In this document: positions 55,667-59,706 of the stretch, piece after piece | Layout: each line of letters begins with the position of its first letter | How positions within the stretch are numbered: the first letter of the stretch is position 1 | NCBI RefSeq assembly: GCF_000423705.1 | Contig: NZ_AUIM01000012.1 | Location: forward strand, 1 to 64,000 | Direction of reading: 5' to 3' | Source: Stappia stellulata DSM 5886 | Lineage (GTDB): Bacteria > Pseudomonadota > Alphaproteobacteria > Rhizobiales > Stappiaceae | Length of the DNA stretch: 64,000 nucleotides | The notes under the pieces: model-generated | Seen by the model: the letters and a program-made list of their open reading frames with translations, nothing else | What the model was told of the DNA's origin: nothing | Databases searched by the model: none | Translations under genes and position numbers: made by a program

Positions 55667-55786
55667 TACGCCGGTCGCGAATGCGATCCATCTCGGCGGC
55701 TGTCCGGCCGCCGATCCTTGCGTGGCGATGCGCTATCTGTAACTGCGTTTTGTGAAAATTGACCGCATTTGTATTCAAGGTGGCAT

Positions 55787-55849
55787 GATCCTGCACCGAA
55801 CCGGCCGGATCCTGCACCGAACCGGCCGGATCCTGCACCGAACCGGCCG
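55787..55849. repeat. Three perfect tandem copies of a 21-bp unit
   Basis: Unit starting gatcctgcacc and ending accggccg at 55787-55807, 55808-55828 and 55829-55849, followed by further ccggccgg steps. Each unit carries the palindrome ccggccgg at the junction. It lies in the 317-bp gap between the NlpC gene and the DUF1284 gene; that gap otherwise holds an AT-richer stretch at 55738-55785 and no convincing gene. Confidence 0.9.
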
Positions 55850-55983
55850 GCAGCCGGCCGGCGGCTCTTCAGGCGGGCCGGGCGGACCGCATCGTTTTGC
55901 CGTTCCCGGTTGGGGTGTTATCAGATCCGTTCTTGCCGGCGGTGCAATGTGTGCCAAGGATCTTTTGTTGACCGCGAAACGCC

Positions 55984-56454
55984 ATGACGATTGATATTCG
56001 TCCCCACCATCTGCTGTGCATCCTGACGTATGCGGGAAAGGGGTACTCGGAAGAGTTCACGCGCAACTATGGTCGGATCGTCGCGCGGCTGAATGCCGGG
56101 GAAACCGTCTCGATCGTCGAAGGGCCGGATGAAATTTGCGCACCGCTGGTGGATGCCGAGGCCGAGCCGCATTGTCTGCGTGAAAGTGTGACACGGCGCG
56201 ATGCGGATGCCTCGGCGAGCCTGGCCCGCCTGCTGCGCCGCCCGATTGCGGTCGGAGACGAGATCCTGCTCGACGTCCCCACGACCGCCGCGCTTCGCGA
56301 CGCCTTCGCCAGCGGGACCGTCCGAAAGGCCTGCGACGGCTGCCAGTGGTCGCGATTGTGTTGTTCGATTGCCCGGCGTGGCTTTAGGGACGCCTTTCTG
56401 ATCGGGCACGCCGCGCCCGAACCCACGCCCGATCAATCGAAAGAGCGGGAGTAA
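55984..56454 (+). CDS. DUF1284 domain-containing protein
   Basis: 156-residue protein beginning with the DUF1284 signature IRPHHLLCILTYAGKGYS. Seven cysteines (12, 52, 64, 117, 120, 126, 127), with the last four in CDGCQWSRLCC, suggest an iron-sulfur or other metal site, as proposed for the family. Function unknown. Its 3' end overlaps the convergent bioN gene by 22 bp, so the two genes' transcripts are partly antisense to one another. Confidence 0.85.
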   Translation: MTIDIRPHHLLCILTYAGKGYSEEFTRNYGRIVARLNAGETVSIVEGPDEICAPLVDAEAEPHCLRESVTRRDADASASLARLLRRPIAVGDEILLDVPTTAALRDAFASGTVRKACDGCQWSRLCCSIARRGFRDAFLIGHAAPEPTPDQSKERE

Positions 56455-57026
56455 ATTGCCTGGGACACCTCGTCGGCGGTCTTCAGGATGCGCACCACGA
56501 GCGGCACGAGGACGGCCTTGAAATTTCGGTCGAGGCCCCGCGCGCGCTGCGCCTCCCGGACCTCGCCAAGCACCGTGCGCACCAGCGGAATGAACCGCAG
56601 GCACAGCGAGATCGCCAATGCAATCCGGGCTTTCGGCACCCAGGACGGGGCAAACCGGAGAGCGGAGAGAATCCCGTCGACGAACTCGCTCGTCTTGGTC
56701 GTCAGGGTGACGAGCGCGGCTGCCAGGATGAGGACCACGAAGCGCGCGACGACGAATCCCGCAAAGACGACGTCGGTCAGGTAAACCTGGACAGCGAAGA
56801 TCGCGGCAAGAATCCAGAATGCCGGTCGCAGCGACACGAAGGCATGACGCGGGGCAAGGCCTGCAAGCGCGAAACCGGCGAACACCAGGATCCCGGCGAC
56901 CGCGACCGAGGCCCACCCCTCGACGATGAAGAGGCTGGAGCACAGGACCACGAGCGAGGCGATCTTGACGATGGGGCGGGCGCGATGAAGCGGGCTGTCC
57001 GCGAAGACGTAAAGGTCGCTCAGCAT
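56433..57026 (-). CDS. bioN: Biotin ECF transporter T component BioN
   Basis: 197-residue membrane protein of the EcfT/BioN family, with about five hydrophobic segments and the coupling motif EAQRARGLDR near residue 155 (Ala-Arg-Gly box contacting the ATPase). Last gene of the leftward biotin-transport operon; its start overlaps bioM by 7 bp. Its short length is normal for BioN. Confidence 0.92.
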   Translation of the reverse strand: MLSDLYVFADSPLHRARPIVKIASLVVLCSSLFIVEGWASVAVAGILVFAGFALAGLAPRHAFVSLRPAFWILAAIFAVQVYLTDVVFAGFVVARFVVLILAAALVTLTTKTSEFVDGILSALRFAPSWVPKARIALAISLCLRFIPLVRTVLGEVREAQRARGLDRNFKAVLVPLVVRILKTADEVSQAIYSRSFD

Positions 57027-57688
57027 CGCGAGCTCGCAACGTAGCCCGCCACAACCGATGCAGCGTCGCCGTCCGCGACGATCGTGCCATCCTCGATGTG
57101 CAGGACCCGGTCGAAATGCGCCAGCAGCTCGAGGTCATGGGAGACGACGACGACATGCTGGTCCAGCCCGTCGATCGCCGCCATGAACTTGCGCTTGTTC
57201 CACAGATCCAGAAGCGTGGTCGGCTCGTCCAGCACGATCATCTGCGGCCGCATCACCAGAACGCCGGCGAGGGCAATCATCTGCTTTTCGCCGCCGCTCA
57301 GCCGATGGGTGAACCGGTCGCGCAGATGGACGAGGTCAAAGCGTTCAAGAACCTCTTCGATCCTGGCTTGCGTCTCGGACGCGGACAGTTTGAGGTTCTT
57401 GAGGCCAAAGGCCAGGTCCTCCGAGACGATCGGATAAACGATCTGGTTGTCGGGATTTTGAAACACAAAGCCGACGTGTCGCCTCAGCGCGCCGCGTTCA
57501 CGAACCGCGTCGAGCGTGACCGTCCCGCGGGTCGGTGTCTCGATACCGTTGAACAGGCGCGCGAATGTGCTTTTGCCGGAGCCGTTGCGGCCAATGATGC
57601 CGACACGCCTCTCACGGAGATGGACGGTGATGCCGTTGAGGATGGCAACCCCGTTTTTCTCAACGCAAACATCGGTAAAGGCGATCAC
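57020..57688 (-). CDS. bioM: Biotin ECF transporter ATPase BioM
   Basis: 222-residue ATPase. Seen: Walker A GRNGSGKST near residue 36, Q-loop FQNPDNQIV, signature LSGGEKQMIALAG, Walker B MIVLDEP, and the switch His in VVSHDLELL. It begins 15 bp after bioY and forms the energy-coupling module with BioN. Confidence 0.93.
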   Translation of the reverse strand: MIAFTDVCVEKNGVAILNGITVHLRERRVGIIGRNGSGKSTFARLFNGIETPTRGTVTLDAVRERGALRRHVGFVFQNPDNQIVYPIVSEDLAFGLKNLKLSASETQARIEEVLERFDLVHLRDRFTHRLSGGEKQMIALAGVLVMRPQMIVLDEPTTLLDLWNKRKFMAAIDGLDQHVVVVSHDLELLAHFDRVLHIEDGTIVADGDAASVVAGYVASSRC

Positions 57689-57703: not shown

Positions 57704-58270
57704 TCAGCTGAGTTTCTGGGGCTGGGTGCGGGGCGAGATAATCGGGTAGGAGCGCTTCACGACGACGATGACACCCGCCGCGACGAGGGATTTCAGGAGG
57801 TCGCCGGGAATGAACGGCAGCGATCCGGTGAGCGCTGCGCCAATCGGGATCTCGGCGACGGCAGCGACCCACGGCACTCCGATCGCGTAAAGCAGAACCA
57901 CGCCGCCGGCCAGGCAGATGGTCAGGGCGACGACAAAGTTCAGGTGGTTCCAGAAACGTTCCGTCAGGAAGCCGATCGCGGAAGCCGCAACGATCCAGCC
58001 GAGCAGGAAACCGCCGGAGGGGCCGAGAAACACGCCGAATCCCCCGCGACCGCCGGCAAGCAGCGGCAAGCCGATGGCGACGAGGACAAGGAACAGAACG
58101 AGTGCGAGGCCGCCGCGCACGGCGCCGAGTATGCCGCCGGCCAGCATGACGCCGAGCGATTGCGCCGTAACCGGCACGCCGACCACGGGAAGCGTGATCG
58201 GCGGGAAAACCGCAAGGCCCGCGACAATGGCGGCGAAGAGGGCGATAAAGACAACGTCACGAGTGTCCAT
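57704..58270 (-). CDS. bioY: Biotin transporter substrate-binding component BioY
   Basis: 188-residue S component with six hydrophobic segments and the BioY motifs TLPVVGVPVTAQSLGVMLAG near residue 25 and GPSGGFLLGW near 90. The start is ATG 58270 with a GAGGAT site; this is 8 bp after the stop of the PhyH-family gene, so both probably lie on one transcript. I saw no BioR-type TTAT-ATAA box nearby. Confidence 0.93.
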   Translation of the reverse strand: MDTRDVVFIALFAAIVAGLAVFPPITLPVVGVPVTAQSLGVMLAGGILGAVRGGLALVLFLVLVAIGLPLLAGGRGGFGVFLGPSGGFLLGWIVAASAIGFLTERFWNHLNFVVALTICLAGGVVLLYAIGVPWVAAVAEIPIGAALTGSLPFIPGDLLKSLVAAGVIVVVKRSYPIISPRTQPQKLS

Positions 58271-58278
58271 GGAGATCC

Positions 58279-59253
58279 TCAACTCGGTGCGGCGGCAGGC
58301 TCTCGCTGGACAAGCCGGCGATCGCGATCCTTGAAATACCTGCAATGCGACAGGCTGGCGCCATCCGGGCCGCCGATTTCGATGTGAGACCGCGTGAAGG
58401 CCTTGTAGCCGTATTTCTCGGCCGGGTATTCGAGATTCTTCGCCCGTTGCAAGTCATAGCGGGAGTTTGCATCCACGAACCGCATAACGAATGCGGCGCG
58501 TTTCGGCAACGCTCCCTCGCCAAGCATGACGCTGCGGTGGACCACATACTTGTTGAAGAGCAGAATGTCGCCCGGCTCGAAATCATCCTCCACCTGATGC
58601 TGTTCGAGGATTTCCAGCATCGTCGGCGAGTTGAGGATGCCCGAACGCAGGGCGAAATAATCCTCCATGCTCGTCTTCAGGCCTGCCCGTTCCTTTCCCT
58701 CCAGAGTCGAGACGATCGCGGGTTCGATCTGCTCGTAGATGAATTTCCCCGAAATGACGGAATCGGGGACATAGGCCATGCCGCCACGCTGGCCGGTCGG
58801 GTCGACGCGGTGCAGGGGCGCCCAGATCGTGCATCCGAACTCCTCGGCGCGCTGATAGCCGAAGCTTTGCACGCCAACGTGCCAGGGAAACCCCTTGCTG
58901 ACGTTTTTCTCCAGCTCGAAACACAGCTCGAAGGTGAGGAAGAGGTCCCGCTCGACGAGCGTCGTCAGAGCCTGGCGGAAATACGCCCGTGCAAGCAAGT
59001 CGTAGATGTCGGATTTCTCGGCCTCGAAATCATACTTCAGCCGGCTGAATTCGCTCTTGAAGTTATCGGGTGCGCGGCTCATTTCGACCTCGACACGGTC
59101 GAGCAGCGTGTTCACGACCTCCGCGTTGAAGAAACCGTCCAGCTTGACGAAGCCGTCGCGTCGAAAGCGTTCGATCTGGTCCGGCGTCGCCTGAAACGCG
59201 TTGTCGAAGGGATGGCCACCCATGGCATGTTCCGTTCCTGTTGCCGCGAGCAT
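58279..59253 (-). CDS. PhyH-family Fe/2-oxoglutarate protein with HVG in place of HxD (possible halogenase)
   Basis: 324 residues with the PhyH (phytanoyl-CoA dioxygenase) fold: RRDGFVKLDGFF near the N-terminus and WAPLHRVDPTGQRGGMAYVP in the core. At the usual metal site, 19 residues before that core Trp, the sequence is WHVGVQS: H125 is kept but the carboxylate (expected at 127) is Gly. The distal H239 and the 2-oxoglutarate Arg (R252) are intact. HxG/HxA instead of HxD is the feature of Fe/2OG halogenases such as SyrB2 and WelO5, where chloride takes the empty site. The gene is 8 bp upstream of bioY. Starts ATG 59253, GTG 59262 and ATG 59223 are all possible. Confidence 0.8.
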   Translation of the reverse strand: MLAATGTEHAMGGHPFDNAFQATPDQIERFRRDGFVKLDGFFNAEVVNTLLDRVEVEMSRAPDNFKSEFSRLKYDFEAEKSDIYDLLARAYFRQALTTLVERDLFLTFELCFELEKNVSKGFPWHVGVQSFGYQRAEEFGCTIWAPLHRVDPTGQRGGMAYVPDSVISGKFIYEQIEPAIVSTLEGKERAGLKTSMEDYFALRSGILNSPTMLEILEQHQVEDDFEPGDILLFNKYVVHRSVMLGEGALPKRAAFVMRFVDANSRYDLQRAKNLEYPAEKYGYKAFTRSHIEIGGPDGASLSHCRYFKDRDRRLVQREPAAAPS

Positions 59254-59706
59254 ATGCGCCACTCTCTCGTTTTACTACTTGAAGATGCATGGACTTTTGC
59301 GAATTCAACGTGACCTATTGCCGCCAAGGCATGGTGGTGTCCCTGCGGAGGTCGTACCGTTCGGTACGCCGATGCGTATGTCGTCTTGGTGCGCGCAAGT
59401 AATCTAAAGAAGCGCGACTTCGCGCGCATTAATTTCCTGAAAGCCTTCTTGCCGATTGCGTTTCGTTTCAAGTCGGGGGAGAAATCTGATATGCACGAAA
59501 CGCATTTGTCATAGACGACAACGCAGGCTATCACTCGCGCGTCTTCGGTGCCGCATGAAGCGTTGCGCCGGGACCACCAGGGACCGTGCACGGCGAAAGC
59601 CGGGGCCGGTCGGCGATTTTTCGAAACAGCAACGTCCATGTCGTTCGGGTCTTTCGGGGCACGGACGTGTCTTGGCGTTTGCGCTTTGGACGGGCGATAC
59701 CCAGCA
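59254..59706. other. Intergenic region upstream of the PhyH-bioYMN operon
   Basis: About 450 bp with no gene I would defend. AT-richer at 59260-59320 and 59400-59515, consistent with promoters for the leftward operon and for the rightward receiver-like gene. An open frame starting at 59548 runs into that gene, but its first 53 codons have no family resemblance. Confidence 0.45.
59353..59368. promoter_or_regulatory. 16-bp perfect palindrome, candidate operator
   Basis: CGTACCGTTCGGTACG: two 7-bp arms around a 2-nt centre, 100 bp upstream of the PhyH-family start. The short perfect dyad in an AT-richer leader is typical of a dimeric repressor site. It does not resemble the BioR box. Confidence 0.45.

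Follow-up and report, generated by a model that had tools for sequence, protein, structure and literature searches.

The window analysed here, a stretch of 64,000 nucleotides from Stappia stellulata DSM 5886 (contig NZ_AUIM01000012.1, positions 1 to 64,000), carries a gene that is very probably an orthologue of btnX, coding for an Fe(II)- and 2-oxoglutarate (2OG)-dependent biotin halogenase, and that stands in an operon with genes for the biotin importer BioYMN. This degree of confidence derives from sequence comparison and covers the enzyme and operon assignment only. The enzyme assignment is already on record through a deposit in the Protein Data Bank (PDB), so that the window gene is a further member of a known enzyme; of interest are the tie of a biotin halogenase to an operon known from algal killing and its placement in what looks like a mobile cassette. 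Genomes and loci used for comparison are numbered with the prefixes G and L, and the gene and its motif residues (numbered from ATG 59253) are as follows.

58279..59223, minus strand: btnX orthologue, predicted PhyH-family Fe(II)/2OG halogenase, 314 amino acids from ATG 59223 or 324 from ATG 59253
58873..58881, minus strand: metal motif His125-Val126-Gly127
58537..58539, minus strand: His239, distal metal ligand
58498..58500, minus strand: Arg252, expected 2OG contact

The best sequence match of the window protein in the PDB was 9pv1_A (9pv1/9q04, 'Biotin halogenase BtnX'), with an E-value of 7.5e-165 and 551 bits over 306 aligned residues. The 9pv1 sequence was identical in 310 of 310 residues to DSHI_RS18615, annotated at 89186-90118 on plasmid pDSHI01 of Dinoroseobacter shibae DFL 12, and the window protein shares 76-77% identity with this BtnX. 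The two also agree in the motif residues, the gene order btnX-bioY-bioM-bioN and a convergent DUF1284 gene. They differ in that the D. shibae copy is plasmid-borne, whereas the window cassette lies in a contig of 351,674 bases that is not a plasmid and whose cassette-flanking genes are likewise found together in G011 and G008, on contigs of chromosome size; furthermore, a resolvase and a second BioY accompany the cassette on the D. shibae plasmid, neither of which was recognised beside the window cassette. CurA was the second PDB match (8.2e-28 with the single sequence, 1.7e-44 with a profile of 15 homologues), and the profile retained this order, followed by weak matches to EctD (4.1e-6) and then MysH, leucine hydroxylase and CytC3. 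The CurA halogenase domain (3nnf, 3nnj, 3nnl, 3nnm) is hence the next closest solved relative and has the WHVGV motif in common with the window protein, but it is found without a biotin context, the CurA halogenase being part of a polyketide synthase and acting on a carrier-bound substrate. In the phylogenetic tree the window protein and BtnX were united in one clade of six rows with a support of 99/99. A preliminary description of this DNA had proposed a halogenase-type enzyme acting on a small molecule that is handled together with biotin or taken up in a similar way, which is borne out insofar as the nearest solved protein, with the same gene order, was deposited as a biotin halogenase.

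The open reading frame at 58279-59253 on the minus strand translates into 324 amino acids with no internal stop. The solved D. shibae protein starts at the residue corresponding to ATG 59223 (MGGHPFDN...), which makes this codon a more probable translation start than 59253. The protein passes the Pfam model PhyH (PF05721) with 25.4 bits at a gathering score of 22, and the GC content of the gene is 0.596 compared to 0.659 in the whole window. The codon positions agree with the earlier observation that His-Val-Gly replaces His-x-Asp at 58873-58881, with the distal His239 and Arg252 retained; by analogy to the Fe(II)/2OG family, His125 and His239 are presumably metal ligands and Arg252 a 2OG contact.

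Conservation of these residues was followed in an alignment of 15 rows, comprising the window protein, L002, L003, L004 and 11 of 17 plasmid records. Left out were H2 (L016, with the same protein accession as H1), H4, H5, H9, H12, H17 and the phage-record match H18 (L021, with an in-frame stop), and L012 was aligned from its annotated start only and therefore lacks the N-terminus. His125, Gly127, His239 and Arg252 were invariant in all 15 rows, at identities to the window protein from 79% down to 26%. The preliminary description had named HxD in close homologues as one outcome speaking against its reading; HxG was present in every row and HxD in none. Between the window gene and the Oceaniradius copy dN was 0.12 and dS 1.21, and dN was below dS in all six of the 15 pairs with a computable dS, the other nine giving no computable value. 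Invariant residues and low dN/dS together fit a working enzyme and not a decaying paralogue. A paralogue that is inactive or hydroxylates, its metal site being completed by some other residue, is thus very improbable, the more so as the window protein shares 76-77% identity with one that its depositors named a halogenase. This alternative can draw on the general knowledge that Gly alone is no proof of halogenation, on a structure prediction (three-row alignment, mean pLDDT 36.2) too poor to argue against another ligand, and on a 34% relative with HYD at the motif. This relative, at 155-1882 of L021, an unverified scaffold labelled 'Bacteriophage sp.', is broken by an in-frame stop and shows His-Tyr-Asp near the motif in its second part, so that HxD relatives of the BtnX family may exist. 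For the window protein itself a double-stranded beta-helix fold is expected from its identity to the solved protein.

The genes adjoining btnX were assigned as follows, bioM, bioY and bioN forming an energy-coupling factor (ECF) transporter by family.

57704..58270, minus strand: bioY, substrate-binding subunit of the biotin ECF transporter (Pfam PF02632, 1.1e-34)
57020..57688, minus strand: bioM, ECF ATPase (Pfam PF00005; TIGR04520 below cut-off with 198.8 of 315 bits; order kept in L002, L010, L011 and L045)
56433..57026, minus strand: bioN, EcfT/CbiQ-type transmembrane protein, overlapping bioM (Pfam PF02361, 1.5e-12)
55984..56454, plus strand: DUF1284 gene, convergent with bioN (Pfam PF06935, 2.6e-16)

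As described earlier, btnX ends 8 bp before bioY (stop codon at 58281-58279, gap at 58278-58271, ATG at 58270). The order btnX-bioY-bioM-bioN is shared by the window, Oceaniradius stylonematis (L002), the congeneric G008 (L045) and plasmids from Pseudosulfitobacter (L010) and from D. shibae (L011), as well as by Roseovarius (L016), where the start of the record cuts bioN. The question raised in the preliminary description, whether linkage to bioYMN is kept among homologues, therefore receives a divided answer: bioY lies directly 3' of btnX in six of seven close-relative loci (the window, L002, L010, L011, L016 and L045), but the linkage is absent from the seventh, L003, and from the distant relatives examined. 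Other BioY genes of the genus, 43-49% identical to that of the window, had no btnX in flanks of about 1.5 kb or less. The DUF1284 gene adjoins bioN in the window, L010, L011, L045, L046 and L047, while L002 gave no match; its pairing with bioY is not special to the cassette, since both genes also occur together on Rhodovulum and Agrobacterium vitis plasmids without a btnX match. On the plasmids of D. shibae (L011, 13218-13790) and Pseudosulfitobacter (L010, 15217-15789) a second BioY, about 37-38% identical to the window BioY, adjoins DUF1284 and is convergent to the btnX operon.

Several observations weigh against the assignment as a biotin halogenase with its importer. Biotin as the substrate of BtnX is taken from the name that the depositors gave to 9pv1/9q04; the Anderseniella copy (L003), from a metagenome-assembled genome, has no bioYMN within about 10 kb; the distant relatives in L012-L015, L017-L020 and L022 have none nearby; and the broken relative of L021 departs from HxG. 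A true substrate other than free biotin, namely desthiobiotin, biocytin or a biotin catabolite entering via the same BioY, is nonetheless improbable. Desthiobiotin is usable by marine bacteria that keep bioB, according to the available text of PMC9561691, and relatives of about 42% identity have, in place of bioY, genes for LysE exporters as neighbours, joined in Klebsiella by one for an HrmI-like oxygenase, so that the family at large may act on varied substrates. This reading has against it the deposited name and the result for the biotin synthase (bioB) model, which exceeded its cut-off in none of four carrier genomes tested (G000, G008, G1113, G1114; among them the genomes of L002 and L003, whose completeness is not stated), so that desthiobiotin would not be convertible to biotin there.

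The same model exceeded its cut-off in six of 14 genomes of the genus, the window's own not among them, and the host is apparently a biotin auxotroph, as judged mainly from the missing bioB. The bioD and bioA models do not separate carriers from non-carriers, because TIGR00347 matched in none of the 14 genus genomes and TIGR00508 exceeded its cut-off in none of 16 genomes, those with bioB included. The available text of PMC9561691 describes many aquatic bacteria as keeping bioB only and using desthiobiotin, and by analogy the six bioB-bearing genomes of the genus may be such users. A btnX gene or remnant was present in four of eight genus genomes without bioB versus none of six with bioB, a difference that is not significant by combination count (p ~0.07). 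The avidin model PF01382 matched in none of six genomes, but the control was blank as well, which makes the result uninformative.

In Fe(II)/2OG halogenases generally, a halide occupies the place of the missing carboxylate, a ferryl species forms, hydrogen is abstracted and the halogen rebounds. According to the available part of PMC10187165, the iron directly binds the halide as well as 2OG and O2. Applied to the window protein, His125 and His239 would hold the iron and Arg252 the 2OG, and Gly127, which is Asp in hydroxylases, would leave a site for chloride or bromide. BioYMN would bring biotin in and feed the enzyme, whose ferryl intermediate, to judge from the halogenase family, would take a hydrogen from biotin before the halogen rebounds. 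A host apparently unable to make biotin would accordingly import it and halogenate a part, the product being either an antivitamin or a locked form of the vitamin. Harm done by halogenated biotin to biotin-requiring neighbours such as dinoflagellates is in our view the most likely role, although we put it forward tentatively.

This role acquires a concrete setting through D. shibae. Its switch from mutualist to killer was ascribed to an unknown factor on the 191 kb plasmid (PMC4643747, available part), and the portions of PMC8831719 at hand report an assay of 28 transposon mutants of that plasmid, five of which had lost the ability to kill the dinoflagellate Prorocentrum minimum. In three of the five the insertion lay in Dshi_3684, 3685 (BioY) and 3686 (ATPase); Dshi_3684 is listed there as a 2OG-Fe(II) oxygenase of 310 amino acids with the insertion at 89405 and elsewhere called hypothetical (PMC8831719). 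Since this insertion lies inside 89186-90118 and the length of 310 amino acids agrees, Dshi_3684 is DSHI_RS18615, the solved BtnX. According to the same source, in which the expression data of Table 1 are credited to Wang et al. 2015, Dshi_3684 leads the 28 genes in mean logCPM (10.655), and it alone has an adjusted p under 0.05 (log2FC 1.867 and p 0.039 for day 24 versus day 18). Algal company is also recorded for other carriers or strains of their species: the dinoflagellates Alexandrium ostenfeldii and Prorocentrum lima are the sources of two D. shibae plasmids and harmful-bloom algae those of Pseudosulfitobacter, and Oceaniradius stylonematis was described from a red alga, with another strain assembled from a dinoflagellate culture (PMC11355691, available text).

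It is conceivable, with slightly less assurance than the role itself, that btnX-bioYMN is a mobile antivitamin module, by which auxotrophic, alga-associated bacteria halogenate imported biotin, a scarce vitamin on which the algal partner depends too, and kill or restrain this partner with the product and not by mere depletion; the module would then be the unknown factor of the D. shibae killer plasmid, with a chromosomal copy in the species of the window. Some points tell against this extension. The evidence of algal killing comes from D. shibae and not from the window's own host; the Dshi_3684 insertion may be polar on bioYMN, leaving the killing not attributable to btnX itself; expression did not rise further from day 24 to day 30 (log2FC -0.563, p 0.576; PMC8831719, available part); the cassette contains no recognised gene for export or self-resistance; and the source of Roseovarius sp. 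THAF9, a plastic particle in an aquarium, departs from a strictly algal pattern of carriers. The authors of PMC8831719, who state in its available portions that both D. shibae and P. minimum are biotin-auxotrophic, propose that the uptake operon depletes biotin. In the corresponding explanation, imported biotin is turned into a form that the cell retains or that is unusable to others, and the operon depletes the vitamin with no poison involved, which suits a cassette with an importer and no recognised exporter. Plain depletion, however, needs no halogenase, and an auxotroph destroying its own vitamin pays for it; we regard this explanation as rather unlikely, and as it concerns the role only, it is compatible with the enzyme and operon assignment.

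For an antivitamin made from biotin there is a counterpart in the Streptomyces antimetabolites (stravidins, acidomycin and alpha-methyldesthiobiotin; PMC13336041, available part), which are modelled on biotin and used in competition as proposed here for btnX. They differ by a streptavidin-based self-resistance and by interference with biotin synthesis, and the main text of that paper contains no word beginning with 'halogen' or 'bioy' (PMC13336041). Among the matches listed in the literature searches, no paper joined the halogenase to killing, and the paper behind 9pv1/9q04, which was not found, may well make this link; a search by locus tag gave PMC8831719 only. If the first metabolic gene of the killer operon is a biotin halogenase, the question becomes testable, as a halogenated vitamin is detectable by mass spectrometry, and marine vitamin exchange would gain a new component in modified B vitamins that act as weapons or locks among algae and bacteria. 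The window adds that a counterpart of the killer operon is also chromosomal in another species and seems to move between lineages.

The distribution of btnX is narrow. Matches were obtained in four of 61 genomes, namely the window's own, G008, and the sister species G005 and G007 with remnants only; in the order, class and phylum samples, which overlap, the counts were 1/397, 1/385 and 1/398 (E 1e-10 or better), always the window's own genome. G005 and G007 have the flanks and bioYMN-DUF1284 intact and btnX in fragments; the decayed remnants lie at 8190-8389 of L046 and 7495-7947 of L047, with bioYMN kept adjacent. The importer outlives the halogenase in these two sister species. At the site of the window cassette, the NlpC-like and response-regulator-like genes adjoin with no cassette between them in all four genomes examined among those without btnX at that place (G011, G008, G006, G009), which marks an empty site into which the cassette was apparently inserted in this genus, G008 having its own copy elsewhere (L045); the NlpC and most other flank labels were assigned by eye, and the response-regulator match was below the cut-off. 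The window protein is 80% identical to the Oceaniradius copy and 76-77% to the roseobacter copies, compared to 66% for G008 of its own genus, which grouped with Anderseniella in the tree (100/100; Anderseniella flagged as a long branch). The simplest reading of these sequences is that one genus gained the cassette on separate occasions. A recombinase is annotated just upstream of btnX on the roseobacter plasmids, being a resolvase by Pfam in D. shibae, and altogether btnX-bioYMN, mostly accompanied by DUF1284, has the look of a rare mobile cassette. Viral contigs gave 77 pattern matches and no relatives, the phage collection a single record (the unverified scaffold L021), and a scan of genome contigs, with a reach limited to close relatives, two relatives among 78 pattern matches.

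Signals of control were sought around the operon, beginning upstream of btnX with one further feature.

59254..59547, no strand assigned: AT-richer stretch 5' of btnX, GC 0.517 against 0.659 in the window

The consensus of BioR-type boxes is TTATMKATAA. The window contained no exact match to it and 14 matches with up to two mismatches against 6.1 expected (none of 100 shuffles reached 14), none of them between btnX and the next gene upstream (59254..59547); one match with two mismatches lies at 55733-55742 between the NlpC-like and DUF1284 genes. Exact matches occurred in five of 51 loci, these being L023, L024 and L038 (bioB or bioY loci of G012, G009 and G001), L014 and L022. The scan for sigma-70-like promoters found none, 59254..59547 included, against 0.7 expected, and seven terminator-like sites stood against 4.8 expected. 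Three tandem copies, 93-100% alike and at a spacing of 21 bases, separate the NlpC-like gene from DUF1284 (55782-55850), close to where the cassette ends on its outer side.

More distant relatives, at about 38-45% identity, are located on plasmids of Klebsiella, Pantoea, Acinetobacter and Streptomyces with no bioYMN in the flanks examined, and in the first three a LysE-type exporter lies 3' of the gene. On the Klebsiella plasmids L013 (8846-11586) and L017 (4859-7598) a BtnX-like HxG protein (41-42%) is placed between an iron-containing redox enzyme and the LysE exporter; the redox enzyme of L013 resembles HrmI (9n1a, 4.1e-35) and, with a weak match, 4-chloro-allylglycine synthase (7twa, 2e-4), a hint that the product is an amino acid rather than biotin. 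A second HxG clade (26-27%) on Klebsiella and Pantoea plasmids (L019 1541-9442, L020 3797-11604) belongs to an apparent biosynthetic cluster with octopine-dehydrogenase-like, DapH-like, SDR, ATP-grasp, MFS and LysE genes. In Streptomyces sp. NBC_01207 (L015, 12004-14363) the gene for a relative of BtnX (38-39%) lies 5 bp ahead of one for a GNAT-TauD fusion, which is likewise a 2OG-type enzyme.
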